In this document: positions 1 to 7,548 of the stretch, piece by piece
Layout: each line of letters begins with the position of its first letter
How positions within the stretch are numbered: position 1 is the first letter of the stretch
From: Gemmatimonadota bacterium
GTDB lineage: Bacteria; GCA-2686955
DNA: 7,548 nt
Reading direction: 5' to 3'
Assembly (NCBI GenBank): GCA_002686955.1
Contig: NYZA01000101.1
Span: 1-7,548, forward strand
Notes under the pieces: generated by a model
Told to the model about the DNA's origin: nothing
Databases searched by the model: none
What the model saw: the letters and a program-made list of their open reading frames with translations, nothing else
Position numbers and translations under genes: made by a program

Positions 1-352
1 CCAGACTGAGGACCACCTCGGCGCAGGTGCGCGCCACCGCCTCCGCGTGGCGTTCGAGCAGGAGACCGGTCGAGAGCAGCGTGAGTCGAAAAGCGGATCG
101 ATGCAGCAGGGCGAGTAGCTCCTCGATCCGCCGGTGCATCAGCGCCTCACCGCCGGAGAGCACGATCTCCTCCACACCGAGGGCCTTCCAGTCCACGATC
201 ATCTCCGCCAAGAGATCCGGATCGATCTCGTTGGTGTCGCCGGCACGCCAGATATCGCACATGACGCAGCGGCAGTTGCAGCGGCTGTGGGGATAGAGGA
301 TCAGGATCGGAACCCGAGTCAACGGCTCGTGCGAAGAGATCAGCCCGGACAT
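1..352 (-). CDS. Radical SAM protein, N-terminal part (3' end beyond window)
   Basis: The first 117 residues of a radical SAM enzyme are present; the frame is still open at position 1. The cluster motif is close to the N-terminus: C25, C29 and C32 in CNCRCVMCDIW, with an additional cysteine, C27, inside the motif. SGGEAL (66-71) is the GGE motif that contacts the SAM amino group. The early motif means there is no B12-binding domain in front, so this is a simple radical SAM protein of the MoaA/PqqE/SPASM kind rather than a fourth BchE-like enzyme. Whether it ends in a SPASM or other auxiliary-cluster domain cannot be seen. The ATG at 352 lies one base after the methyltransferase stop (TGA, G, ATG), with GGAG ten bases upstream. 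It is therefore part of the same coupled unit. No larger annotated frame covers this stretch on this strand; it was found by translating the left edge directly. The reaction is unknown. Confidence 0.85.
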   Translation of the reverse strand, partial: MSGLISSHEPLTRVPILILYPHSRCNCRCVMCDIWRAGDTNEIDPDLLAEMIVDWKALGVEEIVLSGGEALMHRRIEELLALLHRSAFRLTLLSTGLLLERHAEAVARTCAEVVLSL

Positions 353-353
353 C

Positions 354-1133
354 TCAGATCCGCTCCGCTTCGACCAGATAGTGATCGGCTAGCCGCGCGG
401 CCCAGGCGCTCGTTTCGCATCTCCGGTCGAGCGCGTCCAGGCGGCGCAGGAGTCGGGGCCGGGATCGAATCCAGGGCTCGACGTAGGTGGGCGGCAGAAA
501 CACACCCAGCGCGCTGATTCGATCGACGCGCAAGGTCGGCTCGCAGAGCCGCCGGAATCTCCCCACCCGCGGATAGTGGATCCGCATTCCGCGCCAACGG
601 ACTCCCGCCGGATTCAATCGGCGAAACGCTTCGAGCGGCTTCCCGTGCGCCAGCATCCAGCCCCACTCCCAGGGCACGCAGGGCCCCATGACGCAAGCGA
701 AGAGCCTGCCTCCCGGTCGCATTCTGGCGCCCAGGTCGGCGATGACCGCGGTCGGATCGGCCACGCAGTTGAGCGCTCCGAAATTGGAGATCACCGCGTC
801 GAAAGGACCGTCGCAGGCCGGCTGCGAACGCAGGTTTTCCATCGCGCAGTGGTAGATCCGCACCCGATCGCGCTGAGACGCGCCCGCACGGCGAGCCGCG
901 GCCACCATCTCCTTCGACGCGTCCACGGCCACGACCTCGGCCCCGCATGACGCAGCGAAAACCGCGTCACGACCGGTGCCGCAACCGAGGTCTAGAATCC
1001 GTGAATCGGGCGAGAGCGCGGCTTCGATTCGGCGCCACACCCGCGCGCGCAGCCTTCCGCCCAGCTCGGTCTCGCTGAACTGGCGGTCGTAGTCGGCCGC
1101 CAACTCGTCGAAGGCCGAGGGCTGAGGGCTCAC
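354..1133 (-). CDS. Class I SAM-dependent methyltransferase
   Basis: Protein of 259 residues with a class I (Rossmann) methyltransferase fold. Motif I is ILDLGCGTGRD (46-56). The acidic residue at the end of strand 2 is Asp71 in VVAVDASKEM, followed by a CAMENL stretch (96-101) where the adenine-binding loop is expected. FDAVISNFGALNCV (111-124) is motif IV-like, and MRPGGRLFACVMG (138-150) is the strand-5 region. The N-terminal FDELAADYDRQF (8-19) is typical of UbiE/type-11-like small-molecule methyltransferases. The C-terminal 100 residues form a cap-like, Arg- and Trp-rich part that may select the substrate. The acceptor atom cannot be told. The frame is open far upstream, which makes an apparent 761-residue ORF, but that extension is out-of-frame sequence of the radical SAM gene. 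The GTG at 1133 overlaps the previous stop as GTGA and has GAGG seven bases upstream. The stop TGA (354-356) lies one base before the next start. Confidence 0.87.
   Translation of the reverse strand: MSPQPSAFDELAADYDRQFSETELGGRLRARVWRRIEAALSPDSRILDLGCGTGRDAVFAASCGAEVVAVDASKEMVAAARRAGASQRDRVRIYHCAMENLRSQPACDGPFDAVISNFGALNCVADPTAVIADLGARMRPGGRLFACVMGPCVPWEWGWMLAHGKPLEAFRRLNPAGVRWRGMRIHYPRVGRFRRLCEPTLRVDRISALGVFLPPTYVEPWIRSRPRLLRRLDALDRRCETSAWAARLADHYLVEAERI
363..366 (-). promoter_or_regulatory. Possible ribosome binding site for the start at 352
   Basis: GGAG on the coding strand, ten bases before the ATG at 352. The spacing is somewhat long. The close stop/start arrangement suggests that reinitiation by ribosomes finishing the methyltransferase also helps. 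Confidence 0.4.
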
Positions 1134-2527
1134 GACTCGGCCTCGAACCTGTGACACGCCTCGCGGAACTCCTCTTTGGCAAGCGCCGCCTCCTCTTCGA
1201 GCTCGTTCGCCCGCGGGGGATCGGAGCGCGTCAATGACGCAGCTTCTGCGGCCGCGCGGAGCCAACGATCCGCCGGGCGAAAGTGCTCGCGACCCGGCCG
1301 TCCCCGCACGCCATGCTCGCGATCGGAGATCTCCGCCCACGGTCCGGGGCGCACCACCCGATCCTCGACCTTCCGGTAGTAGCCGGTGTCCTTGATCGGA
1401 TAGGCCAGCGTCGTGAAGAAGATGTCGGGCTGAACGCGACTGACGAATTCCACTGTCGCTTCTACGTCCTCGAACTGCTCCCCCTCGTATCCCCACATCA
1501 GGAAGAGACCGGTCTCGATCCCCGCCCGCTTCGCCGCCGAAACCGCCCAATCGATCTCGTCGGTGGTCACACCCCGATCCATCGCGTCGAGAATCCGCTG
1601 CGATCCGCTCTCGGCACCGATCCAGACCCGATAGCAGCCGAGCTCCGCAAGTGTTCTGACCACCTCGTCCCCCTTCATTCGATCGGCTCGGGTGATCGTC
1701 TCGAAGGGCCGGTGGATGCCGCGCCGGTCGAGCTCGAGAGCGAAAGTCCGCAACCACTTTCGGCTGATCGTGAAGACGTCGTCGGAGTACCAGAGCTGGT
1801 CGGGATCGTAGCGCCGCACGATCGATTCCACCTCGTCGGCGGCACCCACGGCCGAGCGACGTCGATGGGAATGGCCGAACACCGCATGAGAACACCAATT
1901 GCATCGATAGGCGCAACCGCGGGAGGTGATCAGGTTGACCGAACCCATGCCGTGGTGGGTCTTCCAGACATCGAGATAGGCGTCGATGTCGATCGCCTCT
2001 CGATCGGGCAAGGGCAGGGAATCGAGATCGGCGATCAGAGCTCGGCCGGGGTTGGCGACCGCTCGCCCCTCTTCGTCGCTGAATGTGATCCCCCGGATAC
2101 CTTGAAGGCGATGGGGGCCCCGGCGCGGCAAGGTTTCGAGTAGCTCCCGAAGAGTCTCCTCCCCCTCGCCGCGCACGACGACGTGCGCCCCATGTTCCAG
2201 ATACTCGGCCGCGTAGTTTCCCGCGTCGGGACCGCCCACGACGACGGTCCAGCCGAGCGCATTCGCCCGCGCGGCGATCCGCAAGACCGAGGCGCGGGTC
2301 ATCATCGTCGTGTAGATGCCCAAAACCGTCGCCGCGTCGCGAACGAGACGGTTCTCCAGCTCGGATCGGCGGCCCATCGTCGGATCGTGAATCTCCACCG
2401 AGAAGCCGAGATCCTTCAGATAGGCGGAGATGTAGAGGATGCCCAGGGGCGGATAGGGCCTCATGATCTCCTGCTCCTTCTCGTCCTCCGCCAAGATGTA
2501 GCCGTGCGTCAAAAGCAGATCGCTCAC
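1130..2527 (-). CDS. B12-binding-type radical SAM protein (third, paralogue of the first)
   Basis: Protein of 465 residues: an N-terminal cobalamin-binding-type domain (about 1-155, with VVVGGPDAGNYA at 95-106), then a radical SAM barrel (about 198-385) with C205, C209 and C212 in GCAYRCNWC. It shares many blocks with the protein at 4036-5487: the DEK...MRPY N-terminus (15-25), DLDSLPLP (167-174), LWYSDDVF (245-252) and VWIGAESGSQRILDAM (301-316). No DxHxxG motif is visible. The C-terminal tail (about 435-465) is Glu-rich and probably helical. The longest open frame starts at a GTG at 2545, but the GTG at 2527 is better. It overlaps the previous stop as GTGA, has AGGGAG six bases upstream, and gives an N-terminus that lines up with the paralogue. 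The stop at 1130-1132 overlaps the methyltransferase start, again as GTGA. It probably modifies the same product as its paralogue, at another position or step; that is inference. Confidence 0.88.
   Translation of the reverse strand: MSDLLLTHGYILAEDEKEQEIMRPYPPLGILYISAYLKDLGFSVEIHDPTMGRRSELENRLVRDAATVLGIYTTMMTRASVLRIAARANALGWTVVVGGPDAGNYAAEYLEHGAHVVVRGEGEETLRELLETLPRRGPHRLQGIRGITFSDEEGRAVANPGRALIADLDSLPLPDREAIDIDAYLDVWKTHHGMGSVNLITSRGCAYRCNWCSHAVFGHSHRRRSAVGAADEVESIVRRYDPDQLWYSDDVFTISRKWLRTFALELDRRGIHRPFETITRADRMKGDEVVRTLAELGCYRVWIGAESGSQRILDAMDRGVTTDEIDWAVSAAKRAGIETGLFLMWGYEGEQFEDVEATVEFVSRVQPDIFFTTLAYPIKDTGYYRKVEDRVVRPGPWAEISDREHGVRGRPGREHFRPADRWLRAAAEAASLTRSDPPRANELEEEAALAKEEFREACHRFEAES
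1141..1144 (-). promoter_or_regulatory. Ribosome binding site for the GTG start at 1133
   Basis: GAGG on the coding strand, seven bases before the GTG at 1133. With the GTGA stop/start overlap it fixes the methyltransferase start inside a much longer open frame. Confidence 0.55.
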
Positions 2528-4032
2528 TCGCCACTCCCTCGCCACGCCGGGCGCAAATGCCCGTATTCCCGGCGGTCCACGCCGGCGCTGCGCGCCCGGC
2601 GGTCCAGTGCTCTGAGCAAGACCGCGTCGGAGAAGTCACCGCGCCACCACCGCCACCAGGCAGCCCCGCGCATCAACCTCTCGGACCAGAGTCCGAGACC
2701 CCGGTTGTGTTTGGAAGCGAAGCGGCTTCGCAGGACCAACTCGAAGTTTCTCACCCTCGACTTCAGCTCTCCCGTGAGCCACGGCACCTGCGGATCGGCG
2801 TGCGTCATCCAGTTGATCCATTTCGGCTCGATCCACTCCTCGAGCGTGTCGGGTGTCGATGCGGCGCCGAGCGCATCGTCGAATGGGGTGGGTCGCCGCT
2901 GCGGCGTCGGCGTGTAGTAGTAGAGGATGATCTCGCTGGCGGGGTTGATCCCCTTGAGACCGCGGATCAGGGTCAGAGCATCCTCGACGTCCTTTCCCGG
3001 GTCCTCGGGATCGCCCAGACAGAACGAGAACTCAGGCACGATCCCGAATTCGCGCGTCTTTCGTGCGATCTCCTCGATCTCTTCCACCTTCAGGTTCTTG
3101 TTCTTCCGCTCCAGACTCTCGTTCGATCCCGACTCCGCGCCCAGAAACACCATTTTCAGTCCCGAGAATCGGATCTTCTCCCAGGTGTTCGCGCCGTAGC
3201 GCAACATCGTATCGACTCGGGCTTCACACCACCAGGCCAGCTCCAAGGGTGTGATCCGCTCGCAAAGCTCCAAGGCGCGAGACTCGCCCAGGAAAAAGTT
3301 GTTGTCGTAAAAATGAACCCCGTCCATGCCATATTCTCGGCTCAATAAACGAAGCTGTCGCTCCACCCTTGCCGGTGATTCCGCCAGCTCGCGGCTACCG
3401 TAGGCGGCGATGACGCCACAGAAATTGCACTTGTGGGGACAACCGATCGATGCGTGGTAGACGCCGGTTCTCTCGCCGAGAATGGTCGGCTGAAGGTAGC
3501 TCGCGACATCGATGCGATCGAAAGGCACCGGGGGAAATGTGTCGGGACCTTCCCAGATCCGCTCCGGCCCGCGGTGAACGCTATCTCCTCGGCGAAAGCT
3601 GAGACCGGCGATCGACTCCGGGTCTCGTTCCCTTCGAAGCGCGTCGAGCAGCTCGACCAGAGTGCGCTCACCCTGCCCCCGCACGACCCAGTCCACGTAG
3701 GGAGCGCGCAGCACCGGATCGGGATAGAGGGTCGGAAAGTACCCTCCCCATACGAGGGGCAGATCGGGATGCCTCGCCTTGATCGCGCGGCTGAAATGAA
3801 CAGCGCTCGGGAGCTGCGGCCCCGGCATCACGGTGACCGCCACCATCTCCACCGGCTCCGGACCCTTGCCCACGAGTGCATCGACCTCGGCGATCGGGTC
3901 GGCATCCGCTCGGTTGCCGTCGACCAAGGTCCACTCGCATCCCTCCGGCAGTGCCGCCGCGAGATGCAAGAGCGAGAGGGGGAAACGGCTGTTTCGCGCC
4001 TTGGTGACCCGGGGATTGACGAAAACGATCAT
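2524..4032 (-). CDS. B12-binding-type radical SAM protein (second, divergent)
   Basis: Protein of 502 residues with an N-terminal cobalamin-binding-type Rossmann domain (about 1-140; it opens with MIVFVNPRVT and contains VWGGYFPTLYP at 94-104), then a radical SAM barrel (about 190-380). The cluster cysteines are C198, C202 and C205 in GCPHKCNFC. It also has HFYDNNFF (240-247) and FLGAESGSNESL (296-307). No DxHxxG motif is seen. The C-terminal part carries YYYTPTPQRR (371-380), WINWMTHADP (405-414) and a Trp-rich stretch with five Trp between 449 and 463. It is clearly less like the two flanking radical SAM proteins than they are like each other, so it belongs to another subgroup and probably catalyses a different step. 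The previous gene stops at TGA 4036-4038, and the junction reads TGAGTGATG. I chose the ATG at 4032; the GTG at 4035 is an alternative that adds one residue. The 3' end overlaps the next gene by GTGA. Substrate unknown. Confidence 0.87.
   Translation of the reverse strand: MIVFVNPRVTKARNSRFPLSLLHLAAALPEGCEWTLVDGNRADADPIAEVDALVGKGPEPVEMVAVTVMPGPQLPSAVHFSRAIKARHPDLPLVWGGYFPTLYPDPVLRAPYVDWVVRGQGERTLVELLDALRRERDPESIAGLSFRRGDSVHRGPERIWEGPDTFPPVPFDRIDVASYLQPTILGERTGVYHASIGCPHKCNFCGVIAAYGSRELAESPARVERQLRLLSREYGMDGVHFYDNNFFLGESRALELCERITPLELAWWCEARVDTMLRYGANTWEKIRFSGLKMVFLGAESGSNESLERKNKNLKVEEIEEIARKTREFGIVPEFSFCLGDPEDPGKDVEDALTLIRGLKGINPASEIILYYYTPTPQRRPTPFDDALGAASTPDTLEEWIEPKWINWMTHADPQVPWLTGELKSRVRNFELVLRSRFASKHNRGLGLWSERLMRGAAWWRWWRGDFSDAVLLRALDRRARSAGVDRREYGHLRPAWRGSGE
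2534..2539 (-). promoter_or_regulatory. Ribosome binding site deciding the GTG start at 2527
   Basis: AGGGAG on the coding strand, six bases before the GTG at 2527 and inside the last codons of the preceding gene. It favours 2527 over the GTG at 2545, which would place this motif inside the coding sequence. Confidence 0.65.
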
Positions 4033-4035
4033 CAC

Positions 4036-5487
4036 TCACCCGAGGGTGGAATCGGAACCGGGCAGCACGGTCGGACTCTCGTGGCGGTTTTCCCCCTCCT
4101 CTTCGCCGAGAGCGTCCCAAGCACGGTCCAAATCGATCGTTCGGGAGGCGCGCTCCACCCCATCATCCGTGACGGCCACCAGAGCCTCTTCATGGAGAAG
4201 ATCGCGCACCTTGCGATAGAACACCGTCCCATAGGTTCCGTTGAACAGCATCGCCAAGTCGTCGGAATCGTTCCAATTCGTCTTACCGTCCACCTGAGCG
4301 GAGACCATTTCGTGGAACCTCGTGCCGGGCAGGGGATAAGAGACCGACACCCCGATATCGTGGGGCGACTCCTCGCGGATCAGGTCGCGGGTGGAGAGGA
4401 TGGCCGCCCAGTCTTCTCCCGGGTAACCGAGCTGAAGGAACCATGATGGCCGCACTCCATGCGCGCGCAAGCGGCGAGTGGCCCGCCGCACCATGTCGAG
4501 CGAGATCTCCTTCTCCATCCGATCCAGAATCGCCTGGGTGCCGCTTTCGACGCCCAGCCATGCCTCCTCGGCGCCAGCGTGGGCCAGCGCTCGGCAGGCC
4601 GACTCGGTCATCAGGTCGACGCGGGATTGAAGCGTGAAAGGGATCCGCACATCACGCGACTCCAGCTCGACGGCCAGGCTCTCGATCCAGAGCGGAGTGA
4701 GTCCGAAAACATCGTCGGCGAACCATATGTGATCGGGCGCCAATCGGCGCTGGAGCGCCTGCATTTCGCTGGCTACGTCGCCGGGAGAACGCTGCGCGTA
4801 GCGCCTGCCATAGAGGGGCTTCGCGCACCAATTGCAGCCGTATGGGCAGCCGCGGGTGCTGACCATACTCCACGAGAGTCTTCCGTGTGCTCGGATCCAG
4901 GCGCGGCGGTACAGCTCCACGTCGACCAGATCCCATGCCGGCAGCGGCAGTGCGTCGAGGTCGGTAGCGAGGGCGCGCGCGGGAGTTCGGCGCAGCTCGC
5001 CTTCGCCGGGCAGAACGAGGCCGCGGATCTCATCCACCGGAGAGCCCGATCTCCACGCGCTCAAGAGCTCCGGCAGCGTCTCCTCCGTCTCACCTACGAT
5101 GATGGCATCGGCTCCGGCATCGAGATAGCTCCGGGGCCGATCGCTGGCATCCGAGCCGTTGACCACGACCTTGGCTCCCATCGAGTGAGACATGCGGATC
5201 ATCTCGAGCTCCGCGTCCCGCATCCGCGTCGTGCACATCTTGCTGAGGAAGTTGAAGTTGTCGTCCAGTATGGCGACGGTGCTTGGTTTCGTGCGCCGAA
5301 GCAGCGCTTCGAACTCGGCCGTGCCGCTCGAGAGCATCGAATCGAAAAGCTCCACACGATGCCCCCGCTCCCTCAAAACCTGCCCCGCGATGAGGGTCGC
5401 CAGAGGCGCGTAGGGGCGCATCTTGCGAGTCTGCTTCTCGTCGTAGTAGAGGAAATATGCATGAGCCAGGAGGACCGTCTCGGTCAT
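4036..5487 (-). CDS. B12-binding-type radical SAM protein (first of three)
   Basis: Protein of 483 residues with the layout of the BchE-like family: an N-terminal Rossmann-type cobalamin-binding domain (about 1-165), then a radical SAM barrel (about 205-400). The [4Fe-4S] cysteines are C214, C218 and C221 in GCPYGCNWC. The barrel also shows WFADDVF (255-261) and AWLGVESGTQ (309-318), typical of the family. No DxHxxG cobalamin-ligand motif is visible, as is common in this class, so cobalamin would be bound without a protein histidine, or the domain may only be structural. After the barrel comes a distinctive KTNWNDSDDLAMLFNGTY segment (402-419). The start at ATG 5487 overlaps the kinase stop (ATGA) and has GGAGAA eight bases upstream; the frame is open further upstream, but that adds only Arg-rich sequence from inside the kinase gene. 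The N-terminus aligns with the third radical SAM protein of the cluster. Family members do radical C-methylation, ring formation or other rearrangements; the substrate here is unknown. Confidence 0.88.
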   Translation of the reverse strand: MTETVLLAHAYFLYYDEKQTRKMRPYAPLATLIAGQVLRERGHRVELFDSMLSSGTAEFEALLRRTKPSTVAILDDNFNFLSKMCTTRMRDAELEMIRMSHSMGAKVVVNGSDASDRPRSYLDAGADAIIVGETEETLPELLSAWRSGSPVDEIRGLVLPGEGELRRTPARALATDLDALPLPAWDLVDVELYRRAWIRAHGRLSWSMVSTRGCPYGCNWCAKPLYGRRYAQRSPGDVASEMQALQRRLAPDHIWFADDVFGLTPLWIESLAVELESRDVRIPFTLQSRVDLMTESACRALAHAGAEEAWLGVESGTQAILDRMEKEISLDMVRRATRRLRAHGVRPSWFLQLGYPGEDWAAILSTRDLIREESPHDIGVSVSYPLPGTRFHEMVSAQVDGKTNWNDSDDLAMLFNGTYGTVFYRKVRDLLHEEALVAVTDDGVERASRTIDLDRAWDALGEEEGENRHESPTVLPGSDSTLG

Positions 5488-6458
5488 ATCGCGTTCTCCA
5501 GCAGCCCGCGGAGGGCACCGATCGCGCCGCTCAGATCTCGGTGTCCGTCGAGTCTGAAGGTGGGACCGGCGGCCCACGCACGGGCCACCCGATCGGGATC
5601 GCAACCCGCGAGGCGCTCCTGAGGAATCTCTCCTTTGGCGAATTCCAGGACGAACTCCTCCGCGCCGATCGGTGTGAGCAGCGCGCCGCCGCTTCGGTCC
5701 CTATCTCCCAGAAGAAGTGTTGCCTTGTGCGGGGTCTCCCGAGCGACTGGGGTCGGCGATCTGTCCATGGCGAGCCGGAGTTTGCGCTCGTCCCCGCTCA
5801 GAACCTCCCGGATGGGTCCGATCGGGCGCACCAGTTGCGCGGCATCGGGGCGAATCAGAAGCTCTCGCACCGCGACCGCGATGCGATGCGGTGCCTCGCG
5901 GTGGACCAAGATGCTCTCGTCTCCGAATACCTGAAGGCCGTCGCGGAAGGCGCGGGCGGCCAAGGTCGATTTGCCGGCGCCGTTGCCGCCGCGAACGACC
6001 ACGGCGCCGGTCGTGCCGACAATGGCCGCCGCGTGGAGCGGCTGCCACGCGCGGGTCGCCAGCAGAATCGCCGCCGGCGCTTCGAGAAGCAGGCGGGAGG
6101 CTGTGTATGGATCGGTGCGCAGCAGTCCAGGGCCCACCCAGGCATCGACGGTGGCCGCATCGGTGTCGATCCGCGTCTCGAGCCGGTCGCCGTACGACAC
6201 GAGGTAGTGCGGCGGATCAACCCGCCAGCTCTCTCCCACGGTCGAGCACTCGGAGGCAGCCTTCGCCACGGAGACACGAAAGCGCGCTCGAGGTTCGCGA
6301 ACTTCACTGCCGGGCCCGGGTGGCCACAAGCGATCGGCGAGCGCTCTGATCTCGGACGATTCGGCGCTGAGCAGAAAGGAATCCCCGGGGGGGGCGAAGC
6401 TTCGTGCGTTCGCGAAGGGCGTGAATTGTCCGTGCGTCGCGGACCGGTCGAGCTCCAT
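5484..6458 (-). CDS. HPr kinase/HprK-like P-loop kinase
   Basis: Protein of 324 residues resembling the C-terminal kinase domain of HPr serine kinase, without the N-terminal HprK domain. A Walker A loop GGNGAGKST sits at residues 157-165 (Lys163), preceded by LHAAAIV (141-147), the usual lead-in strand of this family. The FGDE at 179-182 resembles the family's acidic pair that follows the loop. Residues 1-135 look like the less conserved N-terminal region seen in stand-alone HprK-like proteins. Relatives in lasso-peptide clusters phosphorylate a serine of the precursor peptide, and others lie in exosortase or polysaccharide loci; here the target is unknown. The ATG at 6458 is the only plausible start, because an in-frame TGA at 6477-6479 lies just upstream with no start codon between. 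The 3' end overlaps the next gene by ATGA. A run of eight C (coding strand, 6387-6394) lies in codons 22-24. Other regulatory P-loop proteins cannot be excluded, but HprK-like is the best reading. Confidence 0.82.
   Translation of the reverse strand: MELDRSATHGQFTPFANARSFAPPGDSFLLSAESSEIRALADRLWPPGPGSEVREPRARFRVSVAKAASECSTVGESWRVDPPHYLVSYGDRLETRIDTDAATVDAWVGPGLLRTDPYTASRLLLEAPAAILLATRAWQPLHAAAIVGTTGAVVVRGGNGAGKSTLAARAFRDGLQVFGDESILVHREAPHRIAVAVRELLIRPDAAQLVRPIGPIREVLSGDERKLRLAMDRSPTPVARETPHKATLLLGDRDRSGGALLTPIGAEEFVLEFAKGEIPQERLAGCDPDRVARAWAAGPTFRLDGHRDLSGAIGALRGLLENAI
5494..5499 (-). promoter_or_regulatory. Ribosome binding site deciding the start at 5487
   Basis: GGAGAA on the coding strand, six to eight bases before the ATG at 5487 and inside the end of the kinase gene. 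Together with the ATGA overlap it supports this start over the longer open frame. Confidence 0.65.
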
Positions 6459-6496
6459 CGATCCTCGTCTCGTGGGTCAATGATGTTGCGCGAACC
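6459..6496 (-). other. Only intergenic gap between complete genes
   Basis: The gap between the nucleotidyltransferase stop (TAG 6497-6499) and the kinase ATG (6458). It holds an in-frame TGA (6477-6479) for the kinase frame and a weak GAGG near the start. I see no inverted repeat, T-run or promoter boxes, so it does not look like a transcription break. It is too short to hold a precursor peptide. Confidence 0.6.
6463..6466 (-). promoter_or_regulatory. Weak ribosome binding site of the HprK-like gene
   Basis: GAGG on the coding strand, only four bases before the ATG at 6458. The short spacing makes it a modest Shine-Dalgarno. It lies in the 37-base gap between the nucleotidyltransferase and kinase genes, in which I see no promoter boxes and no terminator hairpin, so the kinase is probably read through from upstream. 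Confidence 0.4.
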
Positions 6497-7548
6497 CTAA
6501 CCTCGTTGTCGGATCGCCGCGAGCAAACGTGTGACCGGCTTCGGGCCGTAGCGAGCCAGAAGACGAAAGAGCCTCGAGAGGTAGTCCCAGGGCCTGGGCT
6601 CCGGACGGAGAGGACGTGCGATCCGCAGCGCGGCGGGGATTGCGTAAGAGATCCGGTCGCGGCGCCTCTCGCGCGCCCGCATGAGCAGGAAATCTGGAGG
6701 CGTGAATCGCTCTCGGGGAGCGAGCAGGCGGCGTCTCAGGCCCCGCTCGACCTCATCCAGCAGACGCGGCAATCTCGGATCCTGGTAGCACCAGGTTTTC
6801 ACGGCCGGCGGAATCGCGGCGCCCAGCAACCGCTCCGATTCCAGCAGACCGATTCCGAGAATTCGGGTGATCGATAGTCGCTCGGCCTCGGCGAAGATTC
6901 CCTCCCAGCCCAGGTTGGGGGCGCAGAGCGACCGGCTCAAATCAACCAGGGCGCCGAGCCGCTCCCACCGCCGCCTCCATGCGTAGAAGGAGAGCACCAG
7001 GACCCGATCCTCGGGGCTCAGTGCGGGGATCCGCCTCCCCCCCACCGTCACTTCCCGGCGCCGTTCCCAAAGCACCTCGAATGAGAGCGGAAAGCGGCAA
7101 TGCGAGGGGGCGAAAGCCCAGTGAAGCTCGAGCAGGGAAGCCGGTTCGCGGCGGAGAAGGGGATAGTCGTAGGTGTAGCGAGAATCGAGACGGGATCGAT
7201 CGGTGGTTTCGGGCGCTTCGAGATGGGGACGGAATCCGAGAGGCGCGAACAGATCTCGAATCAGCAACAGATCGTTCTTGCGAACCAGCAGATCCAGGTC
7301 CATCGCTTGCCGAAGCGGGAGACCGCCGTACACGCTCCGGGCCAGCACCGGACCCTTGAATGCGAGCGCGGGCACGCCACTCTCCGCGAAGACCTCGAAC
7401 GCCGCCACTAGCTCCTCTTCCAGAAAACGCGCACGCGATTCGAACTTGGCGCGGATCGCTTCGAGCGCCGATCGCACCCCTTCCGGCACCGCATTCCATG
7501 CGATCGAATCCAGATGCCTCGTCAGGAGCGGGACCACCTTGTGCCTGG
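6497..7548 (-). CDS. Nucleotidyltransferase-like protein (PF14907 / NTP_transf_5 type), 5' end beyond window
   Basis: Likely member of the uncharacterised nucleotidyltransferase family NTP_transf_5, which has a minimal polymerase-beta-like fold and is often found beside lasso-peptide and HprK-like kinase genes. Numbering from the first GTG in the window (7537), the core signature is residues 58-85: Lys61-Gly62, Tyr70, Arg76, then Asp80 and Asp82 in the stretch DLDLLV. The two aspartates are the probable metal ligands. The rest is helical and Arg-rich, with no signal peptide or obvious membrane segment. The frame stays open through 7548, and the in-frame codons before the GTG read Arg-His-Lys followed by VVPLL. 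This resembles the family's usual HxVxPLL stretch, which lies well inside the protein, so I infer the true start is upstream of the window. The stop is TAG at 6497-6499. It is the first visible gene of the unit and is followed after 37 bases by the kinase gene. The substrate is unknown. Family assignment is fairly sure; the reaction is not. Confidence 0.8.
   Translation of the reverse strand, partial: RHKVVPLLTRHLDSIAWNAVPEGVRSALEAIRAKFESRARFLEEELVAAFEVFAESGVPALAFKGPVLARSVYGGLPLRQAMDLDLLVRKNDLLLIRDLFAPLGFRPHLEAPETTDRSRLDSRYTYDYPLLRREPASLLELHWAFAPSHCRFPLSFEVLWERRREVTVGGRRIPALSPEDRVLVLSFYAWRRRWERLGALVDLSRSLCAPNLGWEGIFAEAERLSITRILGIGLLESERLLGAAIPPAVKTWCYQDPRLPRLLDEVERGLRRRLLAPRERFTPPDFLLMRARERRRDRISYAIPAALRIARPLRPEPRPWDYLSRLFRLLARYGPKPVTRLLAAIRQRG

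Follow-up and report, generated by a model that had tools for sequence, protein, structure and literature searches.

What product requires three B12-binding radical S-adenosylmethionine (SAM) enzymes, a fourth radical SAM enzyme, a methyltransferase, a kinase and a nucleotidyltransferase, all encoded by adjoining genes? The question is raised by a stretch of 7,548 bp, here called the window, which is the whole of one contig (C101; NYZA01000101.1) in the draft genome of a Gemmatimonadota bacterium (GCA_002686955.1; 4.28 Mb, 270 contigs, 84.5% complete) and which a first-pass annotation, made from the letters alone, had described as an unassigned biosynthetic cluster. Here we confirm the cluster, show that it is widely conserved and find no description of it in the searched families or the open literature. 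Gene context in related genomes suggests that it belongs to a widespread uncharacterized pathway that probably builds or decorates a sugar unit in an oligosaccharide that is either lipid-linked or part of the cell surface.

The seven genes form one run on the minus strand, W1 being transcribed first and W7 last:

6497..7537, minus strand: W1, NTP_transf_5 nucleotidyltransferase of the Pol-beta type (PF14907, 136.9 bits)
5484..6458, minus strand: W2, HprK-like kinase with a predicted HprK/PEPCK fold (Walker A GGNGAGKST; AlphaFold model)
4036..5487, minus strand: W3, B12-binding radical SAM protein, clade A (PF02310 and PF04055; C-x3-C-x2-C)
2524..4035, minus strand: W4, B12-binding radical SAM protein, clade C (PF02310 and PF04055)
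1130..2545, minus strand: W5, B12-binding radical SAM protein, clade B (PF02310 and PF04055)
354..1133, minus strand: W6, class I SAM methyltransferase, family MTf2 (PF13649, Methyltransf_25, 65 bits)
2..352, minus strand: W7, MoaA/SPASM-type radical SAM protein, N-terminal 117 amino acids (PF04055, 50 bits; C-NCR-C-VM-C)

Successive junctions from W1 to W7 measure +38, −4, 0, −22, −4 and +1 bp, with no gap above 38 bp, as expected of a translationally coupled operon, and the window probably represents most of a single operon. The first-pass annotation had listed seven tightly packed genes on one strand; all seven are present and Pfam and fold evidence upholds their families, with a correction at the two ends, where W7 is cut by the contig boundary and W1 probably lacks its N terminus, because its relatives start earlier and its own start lies 11 bp from the contig end. 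As the window is the entire contig, the assembly offers no flanks into which it could be extended. The rest of W7 was not found elsewhere in the assembly, a weak absence given the completeness of the genome. Misbinning of the contig is unlikely, because its tetranucleotide composition matches that of three other contigs of its own genome (r 0.96–0.98, compared with 0.73–0.92 for other genomes).

To follow the cluster across taxa, we searched 84,980 species genomes, using W4 and the orthologue of W4 in a genome of another phylum (G054) as queries, and obtained 80 loci with proteins 34–56% identical to W4. These loci were picked by similarity to W4 alone, making the co-occurrence of other genes a fair test; family content was scored by tblastn, and many of the contigs are short. 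A W6-type methyltransferase was found in 55 loci, a W3/W5-type radical SAM protein in 52, a SPASM radical SAM protein in 38 and an amidohydrolase in 34, alongside two further methyltransferase families (45 each), the HprK-like kinase (27), NTP_transf_5 (18), NTP_transf_2 (14), two glycosyltransferase families (GT4a, 25; GT4b, 16) and an ATP-binding cassette (ABC) protein (13). At least two other core families accompany W4 in 65 of the 80 loci and at least four in 45, and the loci span Alphaproteobacteria, Gemmatimonadota, Acidobacteriota, Chloroflexota, Bacteroidota and others, at least six phyla in all. Homologues thus keep these genes together across phyla, the outcome on which the first-pass annotation had made its cluster depend.

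Gene order is conserved as well. In 31 loci, again from at least six phyla (Acidobacteriota, Alphaproteobacteria, Bacteroidota, Chloroflexota, Gemmatimonadota and others), a W3/W5-type gene has a W6-type gene immediately after it. An Acidobacteriota locus (L057) repeats the window's order of kinase and clade A, C and B radical SAM genes, except that a further methyltransferase gene separates C from B, and its proteins are 36, 60, 48 and 60% identical to W2, W3, W4 and W5, respectively. Another locus (L058) has the clade B, W6 and W7 types in the order of the window; G054 holds orthologues of W3, W4, W6 and W7 in one cluster; and a Gemmatimonadota locus (L026) carries the radical SAM genes, methyltransferases, both GT4 genes, the SPASM protein, amidohydrolase and kinase on one strand. 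Shorter or longer versions of the set occur in cultured Sphingomonas, Caulobacter, Gluconacetobacter, Pinibacter and Acidobacteriaceae. In a genome of the same family as the source (G001), the best match to the B12-binding radical SAM proteins reached just 28% identity, and a search of plasmids with W4 gave no match.

In five Acidobacteriota loci (L050:2709-14302, L044, L045, L048 and L059) the set is longer, with as many as five B12-type radical SAM genes and a SPASM gene; the one in L050 is a ten-gene operon of 11.6 kb in which every internal gap is 17 bp or less. One further locus (L084; CALQBK020000003.1) is titled Bifidobacterium breve, a label that looks wrong, and shares neighbouring genes with the deltaproteobacterial and myxococcal loci L071, L072 and L088.

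The pathway's likely setting emerges from the genes that relatives add. Supplying parts that the contig ends cut off from the window, they encode two more methyltransferases, a deaminase-type amidohydrolase and two GT4 glycosyltransferases, and they often add an ABC exporter or a Wzx-like flippase with other glycan-assembly genes. Bacteroidota loci include a WcaJ-like undecaprenyl-phosphate sugar transferase and a PglK-like ABC protein, Sphingomonas loci an MsbA/HlyB-like ABC exporter and Acidobacteriota loci Wzy, and Chloroflexota loci have Wzx-like and GT-C-like membrane proteins, both assigned from sequence and hydropathy. In Gemmatimonadota L026, a Poly_export/SLBB gene and a Wzz-like gene, the latter assigned by reading the sequence, lie directly downstream. 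In Caulobacter sp. BK020 (L025:16110-20606), the cluster is followed by polysaccharide-type epimerases, a UDP-GlcNAc 2-epimerase and another GT4 gene, a set that resembles the UDP-L-FucNAc pathway. In three alphaproteobacterial loci (L032:2400-4493, L020 and L021), a fused Gfo/Idh/MocA and 2-hydroxyacid dehydrogenase of about 700 amino acids stands beside the cluster and adjoins a protein of 506–594 amino acids without a Pfam match. The relatives' amidohydrolase has both the metal ligands and the HxxE motif that mark the deaminase subgroup, its nearest families being the TRZ/ATZ-type and guanine deaminases; the enzyme was not found in the source genome, again a weak absence in an assembly of this completeness.

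Features of bacterial lipid-linked oligosaccharide and surface glycan loci are thus found among the relatives: an initiating sugar transferase (Bac_transf), two GT4 genes, a PglK/MsbA-like ABC protein or Wzx-like flippase, and sugar-nucleotide and polysaccharide-export genes. Glycosyltransferases stand in one locus with a flippase or exporter in many of these relatives. They differ from the published glycan loci that we found in the open literature, none of which combines three B12-binding radical SAM groups, a SPASM enzyme, three methyltransferases, an amidohydrolase and a kinase–nucleotidyltransferase pair. Searches of open-access articles returned lasso-peptide and general glycan papers with no description of this gene combination; a study of Sphingomonas exopolysaccharide (PMC11340318) mentions neither radical SAM nor HprK, and a review of Bacteroidota O-glycosylation (PMC12871550) does not mention radical SAM.

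We then considered the chemistry that the radical SAM proteins may bring to such a setting. In W3, W4 and W5, the B12-binding and Radical_SAM domains both score above cut-off, and the CxxxCxxC motif is conserved (C199/C203/C206 in W4, with equivalents in W3 and W5). Orthologues of W3 that are 44–60% identical occur in Alphaproteobacteria, Gemmatimonadota, Acidobacteriota and Bacteroidota. W3 and W5 fall in two separate supported clades, both present in such clusters, and W5 is an ancient paralogue of W3; its clade comprises 26 rows with support 97/95, the nearest members being those of L057 (60%) and L058 (59%). The nearest solved structure of both W3 and W4 is AprD4, those of W5 are 9ccb and CysS, and that of a full-length relative of W7 is BlsE; W7 itself is 56% identical over 109 amino acids to the SPASM protein of L026. 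These likenesses are too remote to settle which reactions are catalysed. AprD4, GenK and BlsE perform radical SAM chemistry on sugars; the cluster differs from their systems in its low sequence similarity, in the phyla that carry it and in that no aminocyclitol or nucleoside scaffold genes were seen at the loci.

B12-binding radical SAM proteins of the same architecture include BchE, HpnJ and HpnR, and their distant likeness to the cluster proteins, together with that of the lipid protein TIGR04072 and of the NirJ/Ahb models to the SPASM protein, would fit a cluster that tailors a lipid, a hopanoid or a tetrapyrrole-like cofactor, the glycan genes being mere neighbours. However, the best scores are 123 bits against a cut-off of 481 for BchE, 104 against 578 for HpnJ and 88 against 650 for HpnR, about a quarter or less of what each equivalog demands, and no tested core protein of the cluster is covered by an NCBIfam equivalog. 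Moreover, no tetrapyrrole or hopanoid gene was recognized in the annotated flanks, and it is glycan genes that recur at the loci. We consider a lipid or cofactor product very improbable.

The kinase and the nucleotidyltransferase raise the question of what is transferred, and to which acceptor. W1 belongs clearly to its family (curated PF14907 cut-off, 31.2 bits) and carries the nucleotidyltransferase motif GG..MDLDLLV. Its structural model is of moderate quality (predicted local distance difference test (pLDDT) 69), and the fold neighbours of its nucleotidyltransferase domain are MenT1 (Z 14), ANT(2'')-Ia (Z 12), LnuA (Z 10.8) and the ribitol-phosphate transferase FKRP (Z 9.2). The modelled fold would suit an enzyme that transfers a nucleotidyl or glycosyl-phosphate group onto a hydroxyl or phosphate of its acceptor, and does not identify that acceptor; ANT(2''), LnuA and FKRP act on sugar-bearing acceptors, which we count towards a glycan. 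A second NTP_transf_5 gene of the source genome (L103; G000:C50:3000-16937) lies at the end of a contig, in the company of GT4-like and radical SAM genes, and its neighbourhood gave no matches to the cluster's B12-binding radical SAM families.

W2 had no match to HPr_kinase_C in a Pfam scan and scored 25 bits against TIGR04352, for which the cut-off is 200. Its AlphaFold model (pLDDT 86) nevertheless aligns along most of the chain with PEPCK (Z 16, root-mean-square deviation 6.6, 281 residues) and with the kinase core of HprK/P (Z 13.4, deviation 2.9, 132 residues), and the Walker A pattern G-x-x-G-x-G-K-S is invariant in W2 and 13 kinases of related clusters (G157, G160, G162, K163 and S164). 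Judged by its model, W2 is an HprK/PEPCK-fold kinase that lies outside the HprK family by curated cut-offs. A profile made from the kinases of the other loci detects it at 101 bits.

Both proteins are linked to the radical SAM genes. Of 11 genomes with 1–5 PF14907 genes each, located by an independent Pfam model, 10 have such a gene no more than 20 kb from the W3 orthologue, and in nine of these it lies within 9 kb; we estimate the chance of such proximity at about 2% per genome. The top match of the kinase profile falls within 11 kb of W3 in every one of the 11 genomes and scores above 220 bits; other HprK-like proteins encoded there stay far below, at 88 bits or less. Because cluster members went into the profile, the result shows a distinct subfamily and is not an independent measure of linkage. 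In some Bacteroidota (L087, L089 and L093), Chloroflexota (L069 and L078) and G054 (L010) loci, a 300-amino-acid protein with a weak NTP_transf_2 match, or its homologue, stands in place of NTP_transf_5, as if one type of nucleotidyltransferase had been replaced by another.

B12-binding and SPASM-type radical SAM enzymes modify ribosomally synthesized and post-translationally modified peptides (RiPPs), and the cluster might accordingly act on a ribosomal peptide, lasso-like or of a new RiPP class, with its precursor encoded elsewhere. The pairing of the kinase and nucleotidyltransferase points the same way: in lasso clusters of the pseudomycoidin/paeninodin type (PsmK/PadeK with PsmN), an HprK-homologous kinase is likewise paired with a nucleotidyltransferase, PsmK phosphorylating the C-terminal serine, which through PsmN comes to bear one or two hexoses (PMC8498205, PMC9266682). 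The first-pass annotation had also named an association with lasso loci. In contrast to those clusters, the loci studied here have no lasso B1, B2 or precursor nearby and have B12-binding radical SAM, methyltransferase, amidohydrolase and GT4 partners instead. Matches to PqqD and Transglut_core3, sought as the earlier annotation had proposed, were absent from the window contig and from the 20 kb around the radical SAM cluster in 11 related genomes, and Asn_synthase (the lasso C protein) was absent from the seven window proteins, to which that search was confined. A lasso origin of the cluster-linked pair was not supported by the PqqD and Transglut_core3 results. Some of these genomes carry lasso-type pairs elsewhere: the set in Caulobacter sp. 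S45, the L021 genome (NTP_transf_5, kinase, Transglut_core3 and PqqD; C6:96667-101432), lies apart from the radical SAM cluster and serves as an internal control, and the L026 genome has a set of this kind on C36, likewise separate. The window had been noted to lack a precursor gene, and across the 80 loci no conserved open reading frame of 22–130 amino acids was found within the clusters or in the 2.5 kb around them; groups of small frames tried as RiPP precursors were antisense to methyltransferase genes or part of unrelated neighbours. A peptide product is unlikely, because lasso B1 and B2 are missing near the tested clusters, no precursor-like frame is conserved and the ten-gene L050 operon leaves only short gaps; we give peptide modification, which would need a distant precursor, little chance.

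A product that diffuses away, such as a pseudo-oligosaccharide or nucleoside-like small molecule, has more in its favour. Here the GT4 enzymes would glycosylate, the ABC protein would export, and the kinase and nucleotidyltransferase would finish or mask the molecule. AprD4 and BlsE belong to aminoglycoside and nucleoside antibiotic pathways, the W1 fold is like that of aminoglycoside and lincosamide nucleotidyltransferases, and the MsbA/HlyB-like exporter of Sphingomonas loci would suit such a role. On the other hand, the loci repeatedly contain genes for an initiating undecaprenyl sugar transferase, a Wzx-like flippase, Wzy, Poly_export and Wzz-like proteins, and a single antibiotic would seldom be expected to range over six or more phyla. 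We therefore assign this reading a minor, though appreciable, probability.

The first-pass annotation was right to leave peptide, lipid, glycan and small-molecule substrates open, and neither of the outcomes that it had named as fatal to its cluster, a known pathway or a loss of gene linkage in homologues, was observed; the present evidence goes further, speaking against a ribosomal peptide and for a glycan context. Judged from that context, the product is most likely a radically modified, methylated sugar unit within a lipid-linked or surface oligosaccharide. In the pathway that we propose, the clade A, B and C enzymes and the SPASM enzyme would modify a sugar through radical steps of the C-methylation, dehydration or decarboxylation type, and the class I methyltransferases, one in the window and two more in relatives, would add O- or N-methyl groups. 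The amidohydrolase of relatives may deaminate an intermediate or clear 5'-deoxyadenosine and S-adenosylhomocysteine, by-products of the radical SAM enzymes and methyltransferases. The two GT4 enzymes would link sugars. The HprK/PEPCK-fold kinase would phosphorylate a hydroxyl of the acceptor, to which the NTP_transf_5 enzyme would then transfer a nucleotidyl or glycosyl-phosphate group, by analogy with PsmK and PsmN, and the ABC exporter or flippase would carry the product across the membrane.

Several observations weigh against a glycan pathway. The window itself holds no glycosyltransferase or exporter, and the flanking glycan genes of some genomes may be neighbours, not partners. Some relatives, in Myxococcota and part of the Chloroflexota, have only a partial set. 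The best family models for the SPASM protein are PTO1314/NirJ1, not BlsE, and the leaning of the nearest solved radical SAM structures towards sugars is weak, few such structures being available. With these points counted, we still hold the glycan assignment to be probable. A bolder version is possible and put forward tentatively: a previously unrecognized class of product that contains sugar and arises, in six or more phyla, through successive B12-type and SPASM radical SAM steps, with a sugar or lipid, not a peptide, receiving a phosphodiester cap from the HprK-fold kinase and the Pol-beta-type transferase.

Together, these data describe an operon type in which three to five B12-type radical SAM enzymes and a SPASM enzyme work together. 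Because this operon type is common to several cultured bacteria, its product can be sought in laboratory isolates. If the proposed pathway is correct, bacterial surface glycans would join the targets of radical SAM chemistry, and the HprK-like kinase and NTP_transf_5 pair, described for lasso peptides only in the literature that we found, would gain a second type of substrate.

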